Shown here piece by piece: positions 13,063 to 22,400 of a stretch of DNA of 46,948 bases (the stretch's first letter is position 1; every line of letters begins with the position of its first letter). A program made the translations under genes and the position numbers. The notes beneath the pieces are model-generated. The model saw only the letters and a program-made list of their open reading frames with translations. It had not been told where the DNA came from and did not search any database. This stretch comes from Verrucomicrobiia bacterium (GTDB lineage: Bacteria; Verrucomicrobiota; Verrucomicrobiia; Limisphaerales; DASXHY01): positions 1 through 46,948 of the forward strand of contig DASPIL010000007.1 of NCBI GenBank assembly GCA_035629175.1, in the 5' to 3' direction.

Positions 13063-13170
13063 GCCTTGCGATCGCGACGTTACGCAGAAATCCGAATCGA
13101 TGCCAGTTCGTAGCGCACAGGAGCGGCGACTTGCAGCCGGCTTGGAAGCGCGGCGATACAGCCCGTCCTC

Positions 13171-13220
13171 CGTAGCAGCCAAATGCGGAGGGCAGGACAG
13201 GTTCGGAGACCTAGGCTACT
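13171..13220. repeat. Palindromic intergenic repeat element, copy B
   Basis: This 50-bp segment aligns without gaps to 7791-7840 (38 of 50 identical, core GGAGGGCAGGACAGGTT). Just before it, CCCGTCCTCCG (13162-13172) can pair with CGGAGGGC (13186-13193). It ends in CTAGGCTAC, where copy A has CTGCGCTAC. It also lies between divergent genes (ABC ATPase and porin). The string CAGGTTCGGAGAC here resembles CAGATTCGGAGAC in the repeats at 4-16 and 344-356. Confidence 0.7.
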
Positions 13221-13241
13221 TGGCGGCCCGGCAAAATTTAC

Positions 13242-13258
13242 TGTCCTGCAGTAGGACA
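13242..13258. promoter_or_regulatory. Candidate operator: inverted repeat TGTCCT-N5-AGGACA
   Basis: A perfect 6+6 inverted repeat with a 5-base spacer (GCAGT) lies 78 bp upstream of the porin start, in the right place for control of the porin - cupredoxin - kinase operon. Just after it the sequence is AT-richer and contains TTGTCC and TTAAAT, which could be promoter parts, but spacing is not ideal. The binding protein is unknown; no regulator gene adjoins apart from the kinase itself. Confidence 0.45.
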
Positions 13259-13335
13259 ATTTGTCCGTTGTCCGCGAATTTTACGTTAAATCCGGGCAGT
13301 TTCGACAGGGGCATACGTTTTGCTCCGCCAGCGGC

Positions 13336-14649
13336 ATGACCCTTGGCAATTCAGGCAGGCGTGCGCTCCGTTATTGCACAGCTCTTTCCTTGGCACTTGC
13401 CGGTGCCACGGCGCATGCAGCCGAAACAGGCAGCGAGGAACGGCTTCGCCTGCTTGAGCGCCGAAACCAATTGCTGGAGTCACAACTGCAGAAGCAACAG
13501 GAGATGATCGAGTCGTTGACACGCGAGGTCGGCAACATCCGCCGCTCTCAGGATCAATCCGGCGACTCCCCCGCGGCGGACGCTTCCTCGACGGGGATTC
13601 GCCTCGGGAATCTGCATCTCAGTGGTGAAGCGGGGATCGCCTTCTTCAACACGGGTTCCGCGGGTTTCGCACCGCATTCCGAGTTCCGTGTGGACGAAGC
13701 GCGGATCTACCTTGAGGCGCCCATCTGGAACGAAGTTTACTTTTTTGGCGAGTTGAACCTTGCAACTCGCGAGGACTCAGACCTCAGCGCTAAGCTGGGC
13801 GAGTTCTACCTTGATTTCGAAAACATTTCTCAACTCTGGGGCCGCGACACCCAGCTGAATTTGCGCATCGGCCGCCTGGAAATTCCTTTCGGAGAGGAAT
13901 ACCTGCATCGCGACGCCATTGATAATCCGCTCATCTCACATTCACTCGCCGATTTTTGGGGAATCGATCCCGGCGTTGAACTTTATGGCGCCCTTGGAAA
14001 ATTCAGTTACGTGCTCGCCGTGCAAAATGGAAGCGCGGAAAATGGAGTCCAGGACTTCGACGGCGATAAATCGATTGTTGCACGGGTGGGTTGGGATCCG
14101 GTGTCATGGCTCCACTTCAGCATCAGCGGCATGCGCACTGGAAACGTCGATGTGGAAAACGACAGGCTTTCCGCCATCTGGTTCGGCAACGGATTCTTCC
14201 GCTCAATCGGCGGTCCCGACACGACACGGTTCCATGCAAACGTCGTGGAAGGCGATGCAACCGTGCGCTGGCGCAAGGGCCACTTGAGCGCGTTCGGGGG
14301 ATATGTGGCTTACGATGACAACGATCCCGCGGCGGACAACTCCCGCGACATCTTCTTTTACTCGGTCGAAGCCGTTCAACAGGTTTACGGAAAGCTCTAC
14401 GCCGCCGCCCGGTTCAGCGACATCATTGCAGACGACGGCTACGCACTCGCGGGACATGGCGATTTCGGCACTTATTTTTTCGATCGTCTTTCGACACGCC
14501 TCTGGCGGCTGAGCCTGGGACTGGGTTATCGCTTCAGCGATCGGCTCGTCACCAAGATTGAATACACCATCGATCGTGGCGAAGAACTTGGAGGGGCGGT
14601 CCGCAACAACGAGGATCTGTTCGCCACCGAAGCCGTGTTCAAGTTTTGA
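13336..14649 (+). CDS. Outer-membrane porin-like protein with N-terminal coiled coil
   Basis: A 437-aa exported protein with a signal peptide (cleavage near AHAAET), then a coiled coil rich in Leu, Glu and Gln (about residues 30-70, ERLRLLERRNQLLESQLQKQ). The remainder has the alternating pattern of a beta-barrel and ends in Phe (VFKF), typical of outer-membrane proteins. It resembles phosphate-selective porin O/P-like proteins (GEAGIAFFN, FRVDEARIYLEAPI, LRIGRLEIPFGEEY). The substrate is unknown. The ATG at 13336 gives a good signal peptide; an upstream TTG (13261) would not. It is followed 8 bp later by the cupredoxin gene. Confidence 0.82.
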   Translation: MTLGNSGRRALRYCTALSLALAGATAHAAETGSEERLRLLERRNQLLESQLQKQQEMIESLTREVGNIRRSQDQSGDSPAADASSTGIRLGNLHLSGEAGIAFFNTGSAGFAPHSEFRVDEARIYLEAPIWNEVYFFGELNLATREDSDLSAKLGEFYLDFENISQLWGRDTQLNLRIGRLEIPFGEEYLHRDAIDNPLISHSLADFWGIDPGVELYGALGKFSYVLAVQNGSAENGVQDFDGDKSIVARVGWDPVSWLHFSISGMRTGNVDVENDRLSAIWFGNGFFRSIGGPDTTRFHANVVEGDATVRWRKGHLSAFGGYVAYDDNDPAADNSRDIFFYSVEAVQQVYGKLYAAARFSDIIADDGYALAGHGDFGTYFFDRLSTRLWRLSLGLGYRFSDRLVTKIEYTIDRGEELGGAVRNNEDLFATEAVFKF

Positions 14650-14657
14650 GACCGTCC

Positions 14658-15353
14658 ATGAGAATTTTTCTTTCCATCGTACTATCCGCGCTGGTCGTCG
14701 CATTGCCCGCGCAAGGGGGAACCATTACTGGCAACGTGCGCGCCGAAGGCAGGACGGCTCCAGGTGCGGGAACATCGGACGGCGCTTATAGCAGCCGCAA
14801 ATTCAAGTTTGTGGAAAAGGTGGATTACACAACGATGCGTGATTTCGTCGTCTACATCGATGGCGGCATCACGAACAGCGTTGCGCCAACGAACTCCACG
14901 CTGCAGGTCACGACCGAACGCGTCGCGCAGCAGGGCGCGATGTTCACGCCGCACGTTTTGCCCGTGCAGCGCGGAGCGATGGTGGAATGGCCGAACTACG
15001 ATGAAATTTTTCACAACGTGTTTTCAGTTTCCGACGCCAAGAGCTTTGATCTCGATCTCTACAAGGGGAACCCGCCGGGAAAGCAGGTGACGTTCGACCG
15101 CTCCGGGCGCGTTGATGTTTTCTGCTCCATTCACGAACGCATGCACTGCATTGTGCTCGTGCTGGACAACCCGCACTTTGCCTCTGCAGACGAGAAGGGA
15201 AATTACCGGATCACCAACGTTCCCGCGGGCACCTACATCCTGAAGGCGTGGCATGATCGCCTGCCGACCGAGGCGCGGGAGATAACCGTCCCGGCGGACG
15301 GGGAGGTGCGGGCCGACTTCGTGCTCGGCGTAAAAAATCTTCCGAAACATTAA
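14658..15353 (+). CDS. Exported cupredoxin-like copper protein with carboxypeptidase-regulatory-like tail
   Basis: A 231-aa protein with a signal peptide (MRIFLSIVLSALVVALPAQG). The central part (about 60-170) is a cupredoxin fold. The probable type 1 copper ligands are His119 (FHNVFS), Cys156, His159 and Met162 in CSIHERM. The C-terminal 50 residues (YRITNVPAGTYILKAWHD) look like a CarboxypepD-regulatory beta-sandwich. The role would be periplasmic electron transfer or copper handling. It lies 8 bp after the porin and 2 bp before the kinase, so the three are one operon. The ATG at 14658 is chosen over a TTG overlapping the porin stop. Similar fusions are seen near methylamine/denitrification-type genes, but none are here. 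Confidence 0.8.
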   Translation: MRIFLSIVLSALVVALPAQGGTITGNVRAEGRTAPGAGTSDGAYSSRKFKFVEKVDYTTMRDFVVYIDGGITNSVAPTNSTLQVTTERVAQQGAMFTPHVLPVQRGAMVEWPNYDEIFHNVFSVSDAKSFDLDLYKGNPPGKQVTFDRSGRVDVFCSIHERMHCIVLVLDNPHFASADEKGNYRITNVPAGTYILKAWHDRLPTEAREITVPADGEVRADFVLGVKNLPKH

Positions 15354-15355
15354 CC

Positions 15356-17278
15356 ATGATCCGCCTCCGCAGTTTCATCAACGCCAGCCTTCGCACGAAG
15401 GTGCTCGTGCCCATGATGGTCTGCATGGCCGCAATGATGGCGGTTACTGGTTTCCTCGTGAACCGCAGCGTTACCCGGCAGTTCGAGAAGGAGGGCCGCG
15501 AACGCCTGACGATCGCAGATGCCAAGCTGCAGTATCTGCTCAAAACGAGGTCCGAGGATCTTCTGCTTCGCTTTCGCACGCTGCCCAATGAACCGCGCTA
15601 CCGCGCTGCATTTCAGCTCGCCGATGGCCCCACGCTTCATCAACCGCTTGCCGACCTGCTGGGCGAACACGGCGCCGATATCGTTTTTTATACCAGCAAC
15701 GTGAAGAAGGTGCTGGCCGTGGAGAAGCGGGATCCGCTTATCCATACCGCAGCCTTTGAAACTGCCGCCCGCGATGCCACCGATCGCGCCCTGGAAGGCC
15801 AGGAAACTGTCGATACCGTGCGGGCCGGCGCCAGGCTTTACGATGTGGTGGCGATTCCGGTTTACGTGAATCACGAACTTATCGGCGTCATGACGCTCGG
15901 CCTGGAAATCGGTGCGGCCGAGGTCCAGAAATTCAGCCAGCTCACCCGCAGCCACATCGCGTTGCTTGCGGGCGGGCGCGTGATTGCTGCAAGTCTTGCA
16001 GGCCCCGAAGCCGACTCGGCCTTCGTGAACCTTTTTACAAATACAACGCGAAGCACCGACTCCAGCACGACCCGGGGGCGTCTGACTGACCTGGTCCTGG
16101 ACGGTCAGCATCATTTCGGAATGACGGGCAGGTTTGATTCCCTCGGCGCCGACGCGACGCTGGGTTACGTTCTGTTAAGCTCGTATGAGTCGTCGCTGCG
16201 CGCCCTGGCCGAGACGCAGCATTCACTGCTCGTGGCGAGTCTTTGCATGATCATCGTGGGAGCGACAACGGCCTGGTGGCTCATCAACAAGGCAACCCAG
16301 CCGTTGCGCGAACTGCGCGACAGCGTTGAAGCGGTCGGCCGTGGCGACCTTTCACGGCGTGTCGAGGTGAAGTCCGAGGACGAGTGCGGTGAACTCGCGC
16401 GCGTGTACAATCAAATGACCGAAAACCTCTCGCGCTCGCGCGAACAACTTGAGCATGCGCACGCGGAGCTCGTGGAATCCTCACGGCTGGCGGGTAAAGC
16501 CGAGGTTGCCACGAGCGTGTTGCACAATGTTCGCAACGTCCTCACGAGCGTGAACATCGCGTCGTCATTGATGGCACAGGGGCTCAAGCATTCGAAGGCT
16601 GGACAACTGGCGAAAGTGGTTACCCTCCTGAGCGAGCATCGCGAAAACCTCGGCGCATTCCTCACCCAGGATCCGAAAGGAATGCAAATTCCCGATTACC
16701 TTGCGGGCCTGTCGAAGCATCTCGTCTCCGAACAGGAAGCCGCCCTGAAGGAACTCGCGCAATTGCAGAAAGGCGTGGAGCACATCATGGAAATCGTGAA
16801 GGCCCAGCAAAGCTACGCGAAGACTTCTGGCGCGCGCGAAACGGTTCGCGCGGATGATCTCCTGACCGATGCGCTGCGCATGAACGCGCTTCCCGCAAGC
16901 GGCGTGAAAGTGATCAAGGAAGTTGTTGGAGACATCAGTCTCACCGTGGAGAAACACAAGGCGCTGCAAATCCTCGTCAACCTCATCCGCAACGCGCACC
17001 AGGCCTGCGAGGCGGGTCCCAACGAGCCGAAGATTTGCCGCATTGTTGCCTCCAATGGCGGACCCAGGGTTCGTTTCGAGATCACCGACAATGGGGTGGG
17101 AATCGATCCCGCGAATCTCAACCGCATTTTTGCGCATGGGTTTACCACCAAGAAGGACGGACACGGATTTGGCCTGCACAACAGCGCGGCCGCCGCGCGG
17201 GAACTTGGCGGCGAACTCCGCGTGCGCAGCGATGGCCCCGGCCACGGCGCCACGTTCACGCTCGAATTGCCTGCCTAG
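15356..17278 (+). CDS. Membrane sensor histidine kinase with periplasmic sensing domain
   Basis: A 640-aa two-component kinase. TM1 is about residues 16-36, a periplasmic Cache-like sensing region covers about 40-288, TM2 is about 289-310, and HAMP about 311-363. A coiled coil follows, then a phosphoacceptor region with His390 in TSVLHNVRNVLTSVN. The HATPase domain has an N box (LVNLIRNAHQACEAG), a G1 box (DNGVGIDPANL), FTTKK and a G2 box (GHGFGLHNS). No receiver domain and no neighbouring response regulator gene are present, so its partner is elsewhere. It starts 2 bp after the cupredoxin stop. Context suggests it senses a redox or metal-linked periplasmic signal; that is inference. Confidence 0.92.
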   Translation: MIRLRSFINASLRTKVLVPMMVCMAAMMAVTGFLVNRSVTRQFEKEGRERLTIADAKLQYLLKTRSEDLLLRFRTLPNEPRYRAAFQLADGPTLHQPLADLLGEHGADIVFYTSNVKKVLAVEKRDPLIHTAAFETAARDATDRALEGQETVDTVRAGARLYDVVAIPVYVNHELIGVMTLGLEIGAAEVQKFSQLTRSHIALLAGGRVIAASLAGPEADSAFVNLFTNTTRSTDSSTTRGRLTDLVLDGQHHFGMTGRFDSLGADATLGYVLLSSYESSLRALAETQHSLLVASLCMIIVGATTAWWLINKATQPLRELRDSVEAVGRGDLSRRVEVKSEDECGELARVYNQMTENLSRSREQLEHAHAELVESSRLAGKAEVATSVLHNVRNVLTSVNIASSLMAQGLKHSKAGQLAKVVTLLSEHRENLGAFLTQDPKGMQIPDYLAGLSKHLVSEQEAALKELAQLQKGVEHIMEIVKAQQSYAKTSGARETVRADDLLTDALRMNALPASGVKVIKEVVGDISLTVEKHKALQILVNLIRNAHQACEAGPNEPKICRIVASNGGPRVRFEITDNGVGIDPANLNRIFAHGFTTKKDGHGFGLHNSAAAARELGGELRVRSDGPGHGATFTLELPA

Positions 17279-17289
17279 CGTCCGGGCGG

Positions 17290-19044
17290 TCAGTGTCCTC
17301 CAGGGTGCTCCTGAATATATTCCTGCTTCAGCCCCAGTTGTTCAGGGGCATGCAGCACGAGCATTTTCATCCGCACATCCGCGGGCACTTCGCGGGAGGT
17401 CAGCTTCGAAACCACAATCATTAGGATGATTGCAAGCGGCACCGCCCAAATCGCGGGCTGCTCGCAAAGAATTCTCAACAGTGGATGATGAGCCCAGAAT
17501 TCATTGAGCGGCGCAAAACCGGCAAAGATCTTTCCCATCGGCCCCTTGTCTGATGCGAGGGTGCCAAGGTTCGTCAGCGTCGCCGCACCCAGCGCGCACA
17601 ATCCCCCAGTCAGCATGCCGACAGCCGCGCCGCGCATCGTCATTCCCCTCCACCAAACCGACATGAACAACAGTGGGAAATAACTTGCGGCCGCGATTGC
17701 AAATGCCTGTCCGACCATGAAGTTGATCTCGAGCGGTTCAACAAAACTCCCGAGAAGGACGGCCACGCCCCCGATCATAACGGCAGCGATCTTGAACATC
17801 CGCATCCGCTCCTCGGGAGTGGATTTCGGCCGCAGCATGCGCCCATACACATCGTGGGCGAGCGCGCCAGTCATGGAAACCAGCAACCCGCTGAACGTGC
17901 TCATGAACGCGGCGAACGCTCCCGCGCACGTGATTCCCGACAGGACCGATCCCAACGGATAATGCTTCTCATTCAAGAGACGCGGCAGTTCGAGCACGAT
18001 CTTGTCCGTTCCCTTGGACCCGATTCCCGAATACAGCTCCGGGAGCAGATTGCGTCCCATCACTCCGAAGACTGGCGGGAACACATAGAAGACGCCGATC
18101 AGGATCATCACCCACATCGTCGTTCGCTTCGCCGCCACGCCGTCGGGGTTCGTATAAAACCGCACGAGAATATGCGGCAGCCCGGCAGTTCCGCAGACGA
18201 GCGCAATGATCAACGAATACGTGTACAACAACGAATACGGTTTCGTTTGCTCGGGCGTCAGGTTCGCGGCTTTGGCGGCCTTTGCACTGAGCGGCCCGAA
18301 AGGATTCAACCAGTTTGCGTCGGCAGGAGCCTTTTCCGGAAGTGCGGCGCGCGAAACCGCGGTTGAATCGGCAGGAGCATGGATCGAGGCGCTGGGACCC
18401 GTTGCATTGGCTCCGACCTGCGCGCCGTAATTTCCATAAACAGCCATCAACACAAAAATGGGAACGGATATCGCAAACATCTTCGCCCAGTATTGAAACG
18501 CCTGAACCAGCGTGATGCCCTTCATGCCGCCGAGCGCCACGTTCAGCGTGATCACGCCGCCGACCAGCACCACGCCCGCCCAGTATGGGAGGTCAGGAAA
18601 AATATAGGCGAGCGTCACGCCCGCGCCCTTCATTTGCGGCATGGTGTAGAAGAATCCTATGAAGAGCACAAAGCAGACGGCGATTTTGCGAAACAGGGGC
18701 GAATCATAACGGCCTTCGGCGAAATCAGGAATCGTGTACGCCCCAAAACGTCGAAGCGGCCCCGCAATAAACAGAAGGAGGAACAGGTAGCCGCATGCAT
18801 AACACACGGGATACCAAAGCGCGTCGTAGCCGCTGCTCATCACCATTCCCGCGATCCCCATGAAACTGGCAGCGCTGAGATACTCGCCGGAAATCGCGCT
18901 GGCGTTCCAGCCGACGCTCACACTCCTGCCAGCCACAAAGAAATCGCTCGCCGTCCGGGATCGTTTGGCCGACCAGAATCCCATGAAAATCGTGGCGAAC
19001 ACCGTCACCGCGCTGAACGCGAGAATGTAGGGATCGATGTTCAT
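17290..19044 (-). CDS. actP: Sodium:solute symporter, acetate permease (ActP)-like
   Basis: A 584-aa secondary transporter of the SSF family that co-imports Na+ and a small monocarboxylate such as acetate. About 13 hydrophobic segments are seen. Family-like stretches are DFFVAGRSVSVGWNASAISG, EYLSAASFMGIAGMV, FYTMPQMKGAGVTLAYIFPD, and LPHILVRFYTNPDGVAAKRT, the last characteristic of ActP-like members. A Pro/Ala-rich insert lies near residues 215-250. GGAGG lies upstream of the ATG inside the small-subunit gene. Its start overlaps that gene's stop by one base (TAATG), so the two are translationally coupled. Substrate assignment is by similarity only. Confidence 0.88.
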   Translation of the reverse strand: MNIDPYILAFSAVTVFATIFMGFWSAKRSRTASDFFVAGRSVSVGWNASAISGEYLSAASFMGIAGMVMSSGYDALWYPVCYACGYLFLLLFIAGPLRRFGAYTIPDFAEGRYDSPLFRKIAVCFVLFIGFFYTMPQMKGAGVTLAYIFPDLPYWAGVVLVGGVITLNVALGGMKGITLVQAFQYWAKMFAISVPIFVLMAVYGNYGAQVGANATGPSASIHAPADSTAVSRAALPEKAPADANWLNPFGPLSAKAAKAANLTPEQTKPYSLLYTYSLIIALVCGTAGLPHILVRFYTNPDGVAAKRTTMWVMILIGVFYVFPPVFGVMGRNLLPELYSGIGSKGTDKIVLELPRLLNEKHYPLGSVLSGITCAGAFAAFMSTFSGLLVSMTGALAHDVYGRMLRPKSTPEERMRMFKIAAVMIGGVAVLLGSFVEPLEINFMVGQAFAIAAASYFPLLFMSVWWRGMTMRGAAVGMLTGGLCALGAATLTNLGTLASDKGPMGKIFAGFAPLNEFWAHHPLLRILCEQPAIWAVPLAIILMIVVSKLTSREVPADVRMKMLVLHAPEQLGLKQEYIQEHPGGH

Positions 19045-19334
19045 TAACGCTGAACCTCCTCAACTTCCTCCCGTTCCAACGCGATGGAACGACGGATGAA
19101 ACAGAATGAAATCACCCACACCGCTGGAAAGAAACCGATCCCGAGAAGAAACCACGACAGCGTGAAACCAAAGACGCGGCGTGCCATGAACTCAGGTGCA
19201 ATATAATTCGCAAGGGGAAGTCCAAGCAGCACCACGAGAAAGGCGGCGGCGCAGGCAATTGAAAGGCGAAGTTGTTTGCGCATCAACGAATGCAGAAAGC
19301 TTTCGCTGTGCATGTCGGGCTTCGGAGGAATCAT
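19044..19334 (-). CDS. Small membrane protein, DUF485-like symporter partner
   Basis: A 96-aa protein with two transmembrane helices (LSIACAAAFLVVLLGLPLAN and FGFTLSWFLLGIGFFPAVWV) and a charged C-terminus (EREEVEEV). Size, topology and position directly before an SSF symporter match the DUF485 (YjcH) family, co-encoded with ActP in many bacteria; the similar DUF4212 family is an alternative. The ATG at 19334 was chosen. A longer frame runs further upstream but overlaps the LTD/CotH gene and has no family resemblance. It is coupled to the symporter by a 1-bp overlap. Confidence 0.78.
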   Translation of the reverse strand: MIPPKPDMHSESFLHSLMRKQLRLSIACAAAFLVVLLGLPLANYIAPEFMARRVFGFTLSWFLLGIGFFPAVWVISFCFIRRSIALEREEVEEVQR

Positions 19335-19402
19335 GCCGCGTGTGTAACAAAGCCGCTTCCGTGAAGCAACGGCATTCACTTCAGCTTCCGCCATTTCGGC
19401 GA

Positions 19403-22400
19403 TTAAAGCTCGCGCAGGCGAAAGAATCGGTTGGAGCTTGCAGCAGGCACCTGCAATTCGAATCTCGGTCCCGAGAGCACAACCGTTTCGTTCACAGGCT
19501 GCCAGCCGCCGTCGAATGACGTCGCAGTTTCCAAAACGTGATTCGTGAACTCTGCCGGCCACATGAGCTTGATTCCGGATTGAAGCCCCAGCGCTGCGAT
19601 CTCAAGCCGCGGATTCGCATCCCAAGGCACAGTGGCAAGATCGCTCCAGTTGCCTGAGGAGAGCGGAACACCCTGCGGAATAGCAACGGCCTTCAGCCGC
19701 TTGATCCATTCAGCGGAGATGGGCGAAACGTATATCGATCGGGTCGTTGAGAGACGCGGGTCAGTTCCATCGATTGTGAAGTAAATCAACCATCCCGCGG
19801 ACGCCGTCATGCTGATGGTTCCGCCCTGCAAGGCGGAGCCGTTCAAGGAAAGGATTGGCTTCGTTCCAGGATCCGGCAGTCCAGCCGATGCAAGATGGCT
19901 CAACAGCAGTTGCTTTTGGGTTGTCAGGACGTTCTTGGTTTCAGCCGTCGAACTCCGAACGGTTCCCCAGCCCGCGGCATCGGCCTGGCGATCTGGCGTC
20001 ATCAAGGCGAACAATTCATCGATCCTTGGAAAAAGGATCTCCTCGCGAATTACCTCGGCCAGCATTTGGCGCAGCGTCAGCAGGTAGATGCGCCGCAAGG
20101 TTGGATTCAGCGACACCCGCCTGCACAGACTGTTCCGCTGCCAGTCGGGGTTATCACCCTGCAAGCCGTCGCCATACAATGGCCGCAATGGGCCGACTCG
20201 TGAGAACGTGAAGCCCGAGTCGAAATCGTAGCCCAGCCATTGCCACTTTCCGCCGGGTTCGCCGGGAAGGAAGTGGTAATGATTGTGGCCACCGAAATCG
20301 TCAATGTTCATGCAGATGAGCAGCGCCCAGCGCTTGAACCATTGATCCAAGTCGACGTGGGAATCGAGCCATGGCAAGAGCTGGTCGTCTGGCAAATCGT
20401 TCACCGCATTTACGAATTCCCTCAAGGAGTCAGGCGTTTCCAGCGGCCTCACCTTTTTGTTGTAGGCTCCCCAAAAGTCAAAGTCCGACTGAAGGCCGTT
20501 GGGGAAGAGGTCCGAATTCTTTTGCTGTCCCGTCGTTTCAACCGACCGCGCCTTGTAAACTTCGCCAGCCGCGTCATGTCCGTGCTTCTCCAGCCAGGAA
20601 CCTGTGGGGCTCTCGAACCCGATGTAAACACCCCAAAAGGCGCCATTCAAATGCATCCGGATTAATTCGTGTTCGAGTGACGTGACCCCTGCCCGCTCGA
20701 AAATCTCAAACGCAAGCTGTTGCTCCAACGGAACAGAGAACATGGTGTCGTAGGTCCGGTTTCCCTTGTACGGCTGTGACTTTGGGAATCGAAACTTCCA
20801 TGCATGCGCAGGAAAAGTTCGCGAGCCCCGTCCCCTGTACCGGACTCCCACATGCGGATACGCAACATGATCGATGACAAGCGAGCAATCCACATACTCA
20901 TCGGATCTCGGATCCGCATCGAGTTGCGCCGAGTTCCGGGCGCTGAGGAACACGTTGAACAGTGTTAATCCCGTGTTGATCTCTCCGTCATAATGAAAAT
21001 AGGCCTGTGTCGGTGAGGGATCGTCCGCGAAGGGAAGCCAGTTGGTGTAGCCATGTGAATCCACCGTACGGATTTTATAATGCACCAACGTTCCCGACGG
21101 ACGCCCCGGATGAACCGCCCCATAGACCTGGTCGCCCGCGATTCCATCGCCGTGCAACCCATCATCAAACATCTGCGAATAGGACGTGTTCGTTTCGAGA
21201 TTGAGTGTTGTCTCCACGTGCACTGACGCAGGCGGGGAACTGCCGGTCACGCGAACTGTGATGGTGACGCTGTTCGTGGAACGCGGCTTTGACGGCGTGT
21301 GTTTCAGATCATCGAGCAGCAGTGGAACGTGCGTGGTTGAAACTGAATTGGTACGGCCAGGCGTGCCCTTTCCAATAAAACCTCCGAGCGGCGGAATCAG
21401 ATTTGTCGCGGAGGCCGAGGTTGTGAGAACAATGGAAATATCATAGCCCACGAAATCGTCGATGCCGCCGGGAGGCACGGTCCCAAATCGTATTGTATCC
21501 CCGGCATTCACATTCACCGCCAAGGCGGCCGCATTCGTTCCATTGTGAAAGCGCCGGGGATTTGCGGAGGTCGTGCTCATGTCGGCCGACAGCAGCATTC
21601 CGCTCGTGAGCAACGTGTTGTTCCATTTCACATGCCAGGCTTGATCGCGTCCCCAATGGCGAAGGAGCCAGACTCCACCCTCAATGCTGACCTGGCCCGG
21701 CGTCGCAGCAGTCCACCAGACTTCAGAGGGGCCGTGACTCATGATCGTTCCGATTGGAAAATCGTATTCAGGATGCGGCGCGCCCGGCATCGACGAGGAA
21801 CCCGTGCTCCTGGCCCACCCAGGAATTCCACCGGCGCCCGCGTCAGTCCAGGCCGGCTGTGAACTTCCAAGATCGCCCGGGAGCCAGGAACTAAGATGTC
21901 CGTTGATCAGCGTGCCGTTGCCGTTCCGGAAGCTCCATGGACCGCTTGGGTTTTGAACATCGCTCCACCCATCGGTGAGGCGGTTTGTGATCCGGATGGC
22001 ATCCAGTTCTGACCATTGCTGATGAAACGATGCCTCACTGGCCTGGCTTGCCCGCCAATTGGCTGGAGTGCTGTTGTCGCCGTTCGGAAAAAGACATTCC
22101 AACGAAACGCCCAGTTCGTCAGGAGCCTCGGGCCACGGATGGCTGTCTGAGTAACGCACCGTGTTCATCACCCGTCCCGAAGCATCGCGCAGCGTCAATC
22201 GCTCGCCGCCATCGCTCAAAACTCCAGTAAATGGTCCCGCCACGTTGGTGATCCCGAATCGCGCCTGCATCGCTTCCGGGCTGGAAGCGATTACGAGATG
22301 CGCTCCCGCGTTCAGAACAAATCCGGGCTGAAAGGTGAACGAGATTCCGTCAGTAAACGCCCAGCCCGCAAGGCTCACAGCATTCGTGCCGCGGTTGAAA

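Follow-up and report, generated by a model that had tools for sequence, protein, structure and literature searches.

Several bacterial sensors take their signal from an accessory protein rather than directly. In LuxP-LuxQ, TorT-TorS and ChvE-VirA, the transmembrane kinase receives its signal by way of a soluble periplasmic partner. In the YfiBNR system the output of the sensor YfiN is GGDEF, and we know of no exchange between kinase, cyclase and cyclic di-GMP enzyme outputs there. YfiBNR of Pseudomonas consists of the lipoprotein YfiB, the repressor YfiR and YfiN with a periplasmic PAS domain (PMC4655355). The locus described here is a porin-cupredoxin-sensor kinase trio lying in a stretch of 46,948 nucleotides (the window) that forms contig C7 of the 5.41 Mb genome of a Verrucomicrobiia bacterium. 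The nearest named relatives of this genome are Verrucomicrobiota, two of the closest being labelled ‘subdivision 3’. Like YfiBNR, the trio has outer-membrane, periplasmic and inner-membrane parts, with a periplasmic protein in the position to gate a transmembrane signalling enzyme (PMC4655355). YfiBNR is on this basis the nearest system in layout, with unrelated parts: the trio comprises a porin, a cupredoxin and a Cache-HAMP-kinase, whereas YfiR is no cupredoxin and the periplasmic domain of YfiN is PAS rather than Cache (PMC4655355). The LuxP-LuxQ, TorT-TorS and ChvE-VirA pairs use solute-binding partners, whereas in the trio that place would be taken by a metalloprotein with a predicted type 1 copper site, and the outputs of the family to which it belongs include cyclases and GGDEF-EAL proteins. 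By analogy, the trio would work like the accessory-protein-gated sensors, a known class of system. Full-text searches for the set or its parts, most subscription papers lying outside their reach, gave no description of the set.

New here is that cupredoxin and sensor stay paired while the output changes. Judged from the sequences of related loci, the pair is kept while the output is swapped between a hybrid kinase-receiver, a kinase with an OmpR-type regulator, a class III cyclase and GGDEF-EAL. One peptide pattern, run against a collection of 84,980 species genomes, yielded 61 confirmed loci (two of them, L091 and L114, are contigs of one genome), counted by a frame-by-frame comparison that detects only open reading frames (ORFs) resembling the query proteins. 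In 58 of these 61 the ORF of a transmembrane sensor comes next, starting no more than 63 bp after the cupredoxin stop codon. Two of the remaining three (L097 and L116) run into contig ends, and in the third, the acidobacterial L139, a MauG-like di-haem peroxidase takes the place of the sensor and there is no barrel. A predicted outer-membrane barrel is present in the cluster at 58 of the 61 loci. Gene order differs by group, the barrel coming first in type A loci (L083-L116; before the cupredoxin in 33 of 34, L114 beginning inside the cupredoxin) and last in type B loci (after the sensor in 25 of 26, L119 stopping within the sensor), but cupredoxin and sensor remain neighbours in both phyla represented. 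In type B the barrel is predicted, with a sub-threshold OMP_b-brl match in one copy and none in two others; a weak resemblance to the window porin is seen in some copies.

The window's own order was sampled separately. Some cupredoxin match at 1e-10 or better, mostly a weaker one, is found in 146 of 196 genomes, and close matches (<1e-45) in 31 genomes besides that of the window; 26 of the 31 were picked by the cupredoxin alone and four by the kinase, and G303, at a contig edge, was left out. Porin and sensor are both present in 25 of the 26 type A loci picked by cupredoxin; in the remaining one, G376, the gene after the cupredoxin encodes a prepilin-type N-terminal motif. The four kinase-picked loci, which do not count as a test of cupredoxin-sensor linkage, all have the sensor, and three have the porin. 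The sensor is present in 13 and the barrel in 11 of 14 same-order type B loci, a hand-picked part of the weaker matches. The two samples overlap in genomes (L174 and L083, for example), and their counts are kept separate. A trio confined to this one genome, which the initial annotation had named as one outcome that would undo it, is refuted by the sensor that follows the cupredoxin in 58 of 61 and 25 of 26 loci: the trio recurs across genomes.

The domains of 59 sensors, that of the window and those of 58 loci (two of the 59 cut or split), show how variable the output is. HATPase_c was found in 46, HisKA in 45, a receiver in 32 and a class III cyclase in 11; the dCache_3 model reaches E 1e-3 in 4 of the 59 verrucomicrobial sensors. 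An OmpR-type regulator, recognised by similarity to one Pfam-confirmed protein, lies upstream of all 13 type B kinases, adjoining 12 of them and about 0.6 kb off in L120. Of 15 plasmid records with a cupredoxin match, all from Pseudomonadota, 12 encode downstream of it an intact HAMP-GGDEF-EAL protein that also matches dCache_3, 11 of the 12 passing the dCache_3 cut-off; the other three comprise one with a Cache fragment alone and two with neither. DUF3034 and a truncated haemoglobin also occur in 11 of these 12 loci, eight of which are from Caballeronia, so that few independent lineages are represented. A DUF3034 search gave no match in the window genome, but none in 14 control genomes either, so that this negative does not establish its absence. 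In one Caballeronia plasmid (L042:5812-6820) the sensor after the cupredoxin is shortened to a Cache-only fragment.

A tree of the cupredoxins, from which the truncated L143 was left out and which carries a long-branch warning and unsettled bootstraps, places the window protein inside the type A clade (99/100), in which all 30 other classified rows have a hybrid kinase. In the same tree, rooted at its midpoint, the type B kinases nest among the cyclases. The initial annotation missed that the window transmitter is itself an exchanged part. An LHN-type kinase unique to the window is ruled out by L191 (LHNLGN) and L196 (LHNVGN), both LHN-type transmitters that lack HisKA under the same type of sensor. 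A single origin of the window, L191 and L196 transmitters is rejected (approximately unbiased test, p-AU 0.0195), and an LHN-type transmitter was thus gained at least twice under the same cupredoxin and sensor.

Since the barrel, the blue-copper protein and the Cache-HAMP-type sensor are constant and the output is variable, the most economical reading places the cupredoxin on the input side. A cyclase or a GGDEF-EAL protein can control the transcription of a gene without adjoining it, and a shared input is therefore the simpler reason for the linkage. The swapping of outputs suggests that the copper protein is what the cell reads, and the truncated haemoglobin found with the proteobacterial version may point to oxygen or nitric oxide.

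The divergence of the parts was compared in 29 hybrid loci, L088 being excluded from these sets for its split porin. The divergence of the cupredoxin follows the sensor region more than the porin or the kinase core. The partial correlation of distances between cupredoxin and sensor region is 0.51 given kinase core and porin (0 of 2000 permutations as high), against 0.23 for cupredoxin-porin (p 0.0085) and -0.02 for sensor-porin. With the receiver as an extra control, the three values become 0.44, 0.22 and -0.10 by ranks (the first ranging from 0.39 to 0.49 in a jackknife) and 0.38, 0.11 and -0.02 by raw distances; by ranks without five outlying loci they are 0.37, 0.05 and 0.03. This is indirect evidence for, and no proof of, a contact between cupredoxin and sensor.

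We regard as evenly poised the proposal that the trio is a conserved envelope-signalling module in which the cupredoxin serves as a periplasmic co-receptor read by the Cache domain of the transducer. The outer-membrane barrel would let in, or keep close to that membrane, an agent acting on the periplasmic blue-copper protein; the Cache domain would read the Cu(I)/Cu(II) or apo/holo state of the latter, and HAMP would relay the signal to the fused output, of whatever type. For the window this is a non-HisKA LHNVRN histidine kinase that would phosphorylate an unlinked receiver via His390. The sequences show the gene set with its domains, the conserved ligands and gene order, the exchange of outputs and the co-divergence of cupredoxin and sensor region; we infer the cupredoxin-Cache contact, the copper loading, the redox or copper stimulus, what the pore does and that the receiver is unlinked. 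A kinase that senses what the cupredoxin reports, as the initial annotation had suggested, is plausible, with indirect support from output swapping and co-divergence, though still a supposition. A bolder version, which we put forward tentatively, makes the blue-copper protein a dedicated redox (or copper) receptor subunit rather than an electron carrier, gating Cache-HAMP transducers with freely exchanged outputs. Blue-copper proteins are textbook electron carriers, and the recurring pair with its many outputs suggests that bacteria also employ them for sensing. The module offers a testable answer to how cells read the redox or copper state of the periplasm. On the bolder version, a single input would feed several of the major second-messenger and phosphorelay pathways of bacteria. 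If the proposal is right, the input can stay fixed while evolution rewires the output, and a function is at hand for the genes for a ‘methylamine utilization protein’, as the plasmid cupredoxins are named in public records, that stand beside those of GGDEF-EAL proteins.

Several observations weigh against a co-receptor role. Orphan sensors with no adjoining cupredoxin exist in the same genome (contig C36) and in G295, and L189 and L210, like L139, have a cupredoxin with no adjoining sensor. Profile alignment of the sensor regions supports the reading with high probabilities for hybrid versus window (100), hybrid versus proteobacterial (98.7), window versus proteobacterial (96.2), hybrid versus type B kinases (96.3) and hybrid versus cyclases (96.6), but gives low ones for window versus type B (39-42), hybrid versus the L118/L122 group (18.7) and type B kinases versus proteobacterial (17.2), all of them values that lack an unrelated-Cache control as a baseline. 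The control in the distance comparison is imperfect, as the partial correlation of cupredoxin and receiver stays at 0.19-0.27. Family cupredoxins also stand beside respiratory genes, namely COX15 (in the same genome), cytochrome oxidase subunit I (L076), SCO/cbb3 genes (rhizobial plasmids) and c-type cytochromes; and since these respiratory-linked members keep the ligands too, ligand conservation alone is no pointer to sensing. Such neighbours, together with the MauG-like peroxidase, make electron transfer the weightiest rival: the cupredoxin would serve an unlinked oxidoreductase or respiratory chain, and the sensor would regulate the operon by reading a small molecule that enters via the porin. 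The nearest folds of the cupredoxin are mostly electron carriers, and small molecules are the usual ligands of Cache domains. We nevertheless consider this unlikely, if a serious contender, as a domain scan found no oxidoreductase gene in the window operon, the constant partners in sensor-linked loci are the barrel and the sensor and not an enzyme, the linkage survives with cyclase and GGDEF-EAL outputs, and the cupredoxin co-diverges more with the sensor region than with the porin.

An operon for copper homeostasis, with a porin and a cupredoxin that import or buffer copper and a metal-sensing kinase like CusS or CopS, would agree with the copper-type ligands kept throughout and with a weak similarity of the window kinase to CusS (PF21085, 14 bits) and to the heavy-metal kinases (TIGR01386, 58.7 bits). 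CusS/CopS kinases share periplasmic sensing, HAMP and a kinase with the window protein, for which a copper link is suspected. The window kinase has a Cache domain instead of the CusS sensor domain, and its partners are a cupredoxin and a porin instead of efflux genes. Both of its scores are far under the curated cut-offs of 24.1 and 292.55, and assignment as a CusS-type copper sensor was rejected. No gene for a copper ATPase, CusABC-like pump, CopA/CopB or CueO-like protein was found among the eight window proteins scanned or the annotated neighbours of the plasmid relatives. With cyclases and GGDEF-EAL among the outputs as well, copper homeostasis seems improbable. Least credible, and very improbable in our view, is that the gene order reflects chance or mere vertical inheritance and the three products are functionally unlinked. 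The type A loci do share descent, and neighbours can be co-inherited, but the cupredoxin and sensor remain adjacent across two phyla despite the differing gene order of the groups, and the output has been exchanged more than once with the pair unbroken; this cross-phylum conservation largely refutes it.

The features of the trio are collected in Table 1. The initial annotation had the layout right, with three ORFs on the forward strand separated by gaps of 8 and 2 bp, from which, by size alone, the genes are probably co-transcribed; domains and models likewise bear out its unit of outer-membrane pore, type 1 copper-like protein and Cache kinase.

Table 1. Features of the porin-cupredoxin-kinase locus (window coordinates)
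Feature	Position	Strand	Description
Palindrome TGTCCTGCAGTAGGACA	13242..13258	.	17 bp; operator label unsupported as a conserved or genome-wide site
Porin ORF	13336..14649	+	ATG 13336, stop 14649; 437 amino acids; predicted outer-membrane porin
Cupredoxin ORF	14658..15353	+	231 amino acids; predicted periplasmic; C-terminal carboxypeptidase-regulatory-like/fn3-like domain
Type 1 copper ligands	15012..15143	+	His119 15012-15014, Cys156 15123-15125, His159 15132-15134, Met162 15141-15143
Kinase ORF	15356..17278	+	640 amino acids; sensor histidine kinase with two transmembrane segments: Cache, HAMP, LHNVRN-type transmitter
dCache_3 match	15527..16045	+	Residues 58-230, periplasmic part; 1e-11, 45.3 bits against a cut-off of 25.7
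HAMP	16277..16432	+	Residues 308-359; 2.6e-13
His390	16523..16525	+	Probable phospho-acceptor in VLHNVRNVLTSVN; no HisKA match
HATPase_c	16961..17272	+	Residues 536-639; 1.1e-18

As a single sequence, the window cupredoxin scores 20.0 bits against PF00127 (Copper-bind), just under the cut-off of 21.2. A profile built from 32 relatives picks up amicyanin at a best E of 3.3e-6 and a copper nitrite reductase at 2.1e-7, and the predicted model, with a predicted local distance difference test (pLDDT) score of 85.5, has amicyanin (1id2, E 1.4e-6) as its top Foldseek match. The ligands named in the initial annotation are present as numbered. His119, Cys156 and His159 are invariant in all 74 alignment rows that cover them, and Met162 in 75 of 75, a count that is partly by construction since Met belonged to the peptide search pattern; His and Cys lay outside it. 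The alignment has 75 rows, among them the truncated L143 and five hand-added relatives without an intact sensor neighbour. In ligand set and predicted fold, the protein agrees with the type 1 copper proteins, and copper loading is predicted. Amicyanin has the ligand spacing Cys-X2-His-X2-Met, as does the short ligand loop of the window protein. The amicyanin and methylamine-utilization cupredoxins share its fold, but the window protein has an extra C-terminal domain and no mau genes beside it. Identity as amicyanin was rejected, with 15.3 bits against the NCBIfam equivalog cut-off of 110.2 and no mau neighbours found.

Other members of the family occur in varied settings. A second cupredoxin of the window genome, on contig C107 (L078:6804-7511), lies directly before a COX15/CtaA gene and is a respiratory paralogue. 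The G360 locus (L182:5435-7003, minus strand) has two diverged tandem cupredoxins between porin and hybrid kinase. In the acidobacterial locus the cupredoxin and the peroxidase that follows it occupy L139:1731-3418.

The window porin would be missed by Pfam alone, as it stays under all Pfam cut-offs (BBP2, 12.8 bits against 26.2). Porin_O_P matches 5 of 23 porin members, with a best E of 2e-4, and the window protein is not among the five. Its signal peptide was recognised by eye. The AlphaFold2 model (pLDDT 82.1) has a helix at residues 33-74 followed by a barrel, and Foldseek matches it to DcaP (6eus), PorB, Omp32 and OprP with probability 1.00; the template modelling score by query against 6eus is 0.55, a likeness known from prediction alone. 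The protein is accordingly predicted to be an outer-membrane porin of DcaP/OprP-like fold. It is alike in barrel fold to the DcaP/OprP-type porins, at 11-14% identity, and also has the helix before the barrel. DcaP too has an N-terminal coiled coil. In Methylacidimicrobium (L086:5753-6358), a protein with a receiver domain as its sole Pfam match is encoded directly before the porin.

The window kinase has hydrophobic stretches at about residues 12-36 and 289-311, and its periplasmic part scores above the Pfam gathering cut-off for dCache_3 (PF14827), which places it in that family. No HisKA match precedes HATPase_c, the H-box being VLHNVRN, and among the 46 HATPase_c sensors of the 59 scanned it is the sole one without HisKA. 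His390 is the probable phospho-acceptor, as it aligns with the histidine of HELNNP in the hybrids. No Response_reg match was found in the window kinase, against a receiver in 32 of 58 related loci. One type A operon (L199:5230-7089) has a sensor with HisKA and HATPase_c in which a receiver domain was not found. The window genome holds 12 full-length transmitters of the LHNV(G/K/R)N type, and that of the window is 46-57% identical to the 11 others (L154-L164), whose box is LHNV(G/K)N. An ORF resembling a classical kinase directly follows the LHN-type transmitter at three of these 11 places (L154, L156 and L164). The orphan on contig C36 (L165:7019-9346) is a Cache-HAMP-HisKA-HATPase-receiver hybrid kinase, a design common in related operons; over residues 1-409 it shares 44% identity with the window kinase, and neither a cupredoxin nor a porin is found beside it.

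The palindrome TGTCCTGCAGTAGGACA, which the initial annotation took for an operator, fared poorly. It occurs once in the 5.41 Mb genome, where about 0.3 copies are expected from its 12 fixed bases by our own arithmetic, and allowing up to two mismatches raises the count to 174, below the 207 of the reversed control. Across 64 related type A loci (34 and 30 from the two samples, some genomes being in both) there is no exact copy, and one-mismatch copies exist in two. Palindromes upstream of the porin in 19 relatives differ from it. A conserved or genome-wide operator is thus unsupported, the sequence being unique, unenriched and not kept in relatives; it may bind something locally. A scan of positions 13100-17400 for consensus sigma-70 promoters and terminators gave a count no higher than in shuffled sequence.

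No response regulator was found among the genes flanking the trio, as the initial annotation had said; this holds for the window but overlooked that relatives have a fused receiver or an adjoining OmpR-type regulator. The trio is flanked upstream by a divergent ABC-transporter pair. Downstream and convergent to it, on the minus strand at 17290-19562, is a gene for an SSF-family symporter with a gene resembling the DUF485/DUF4212 small subunit.

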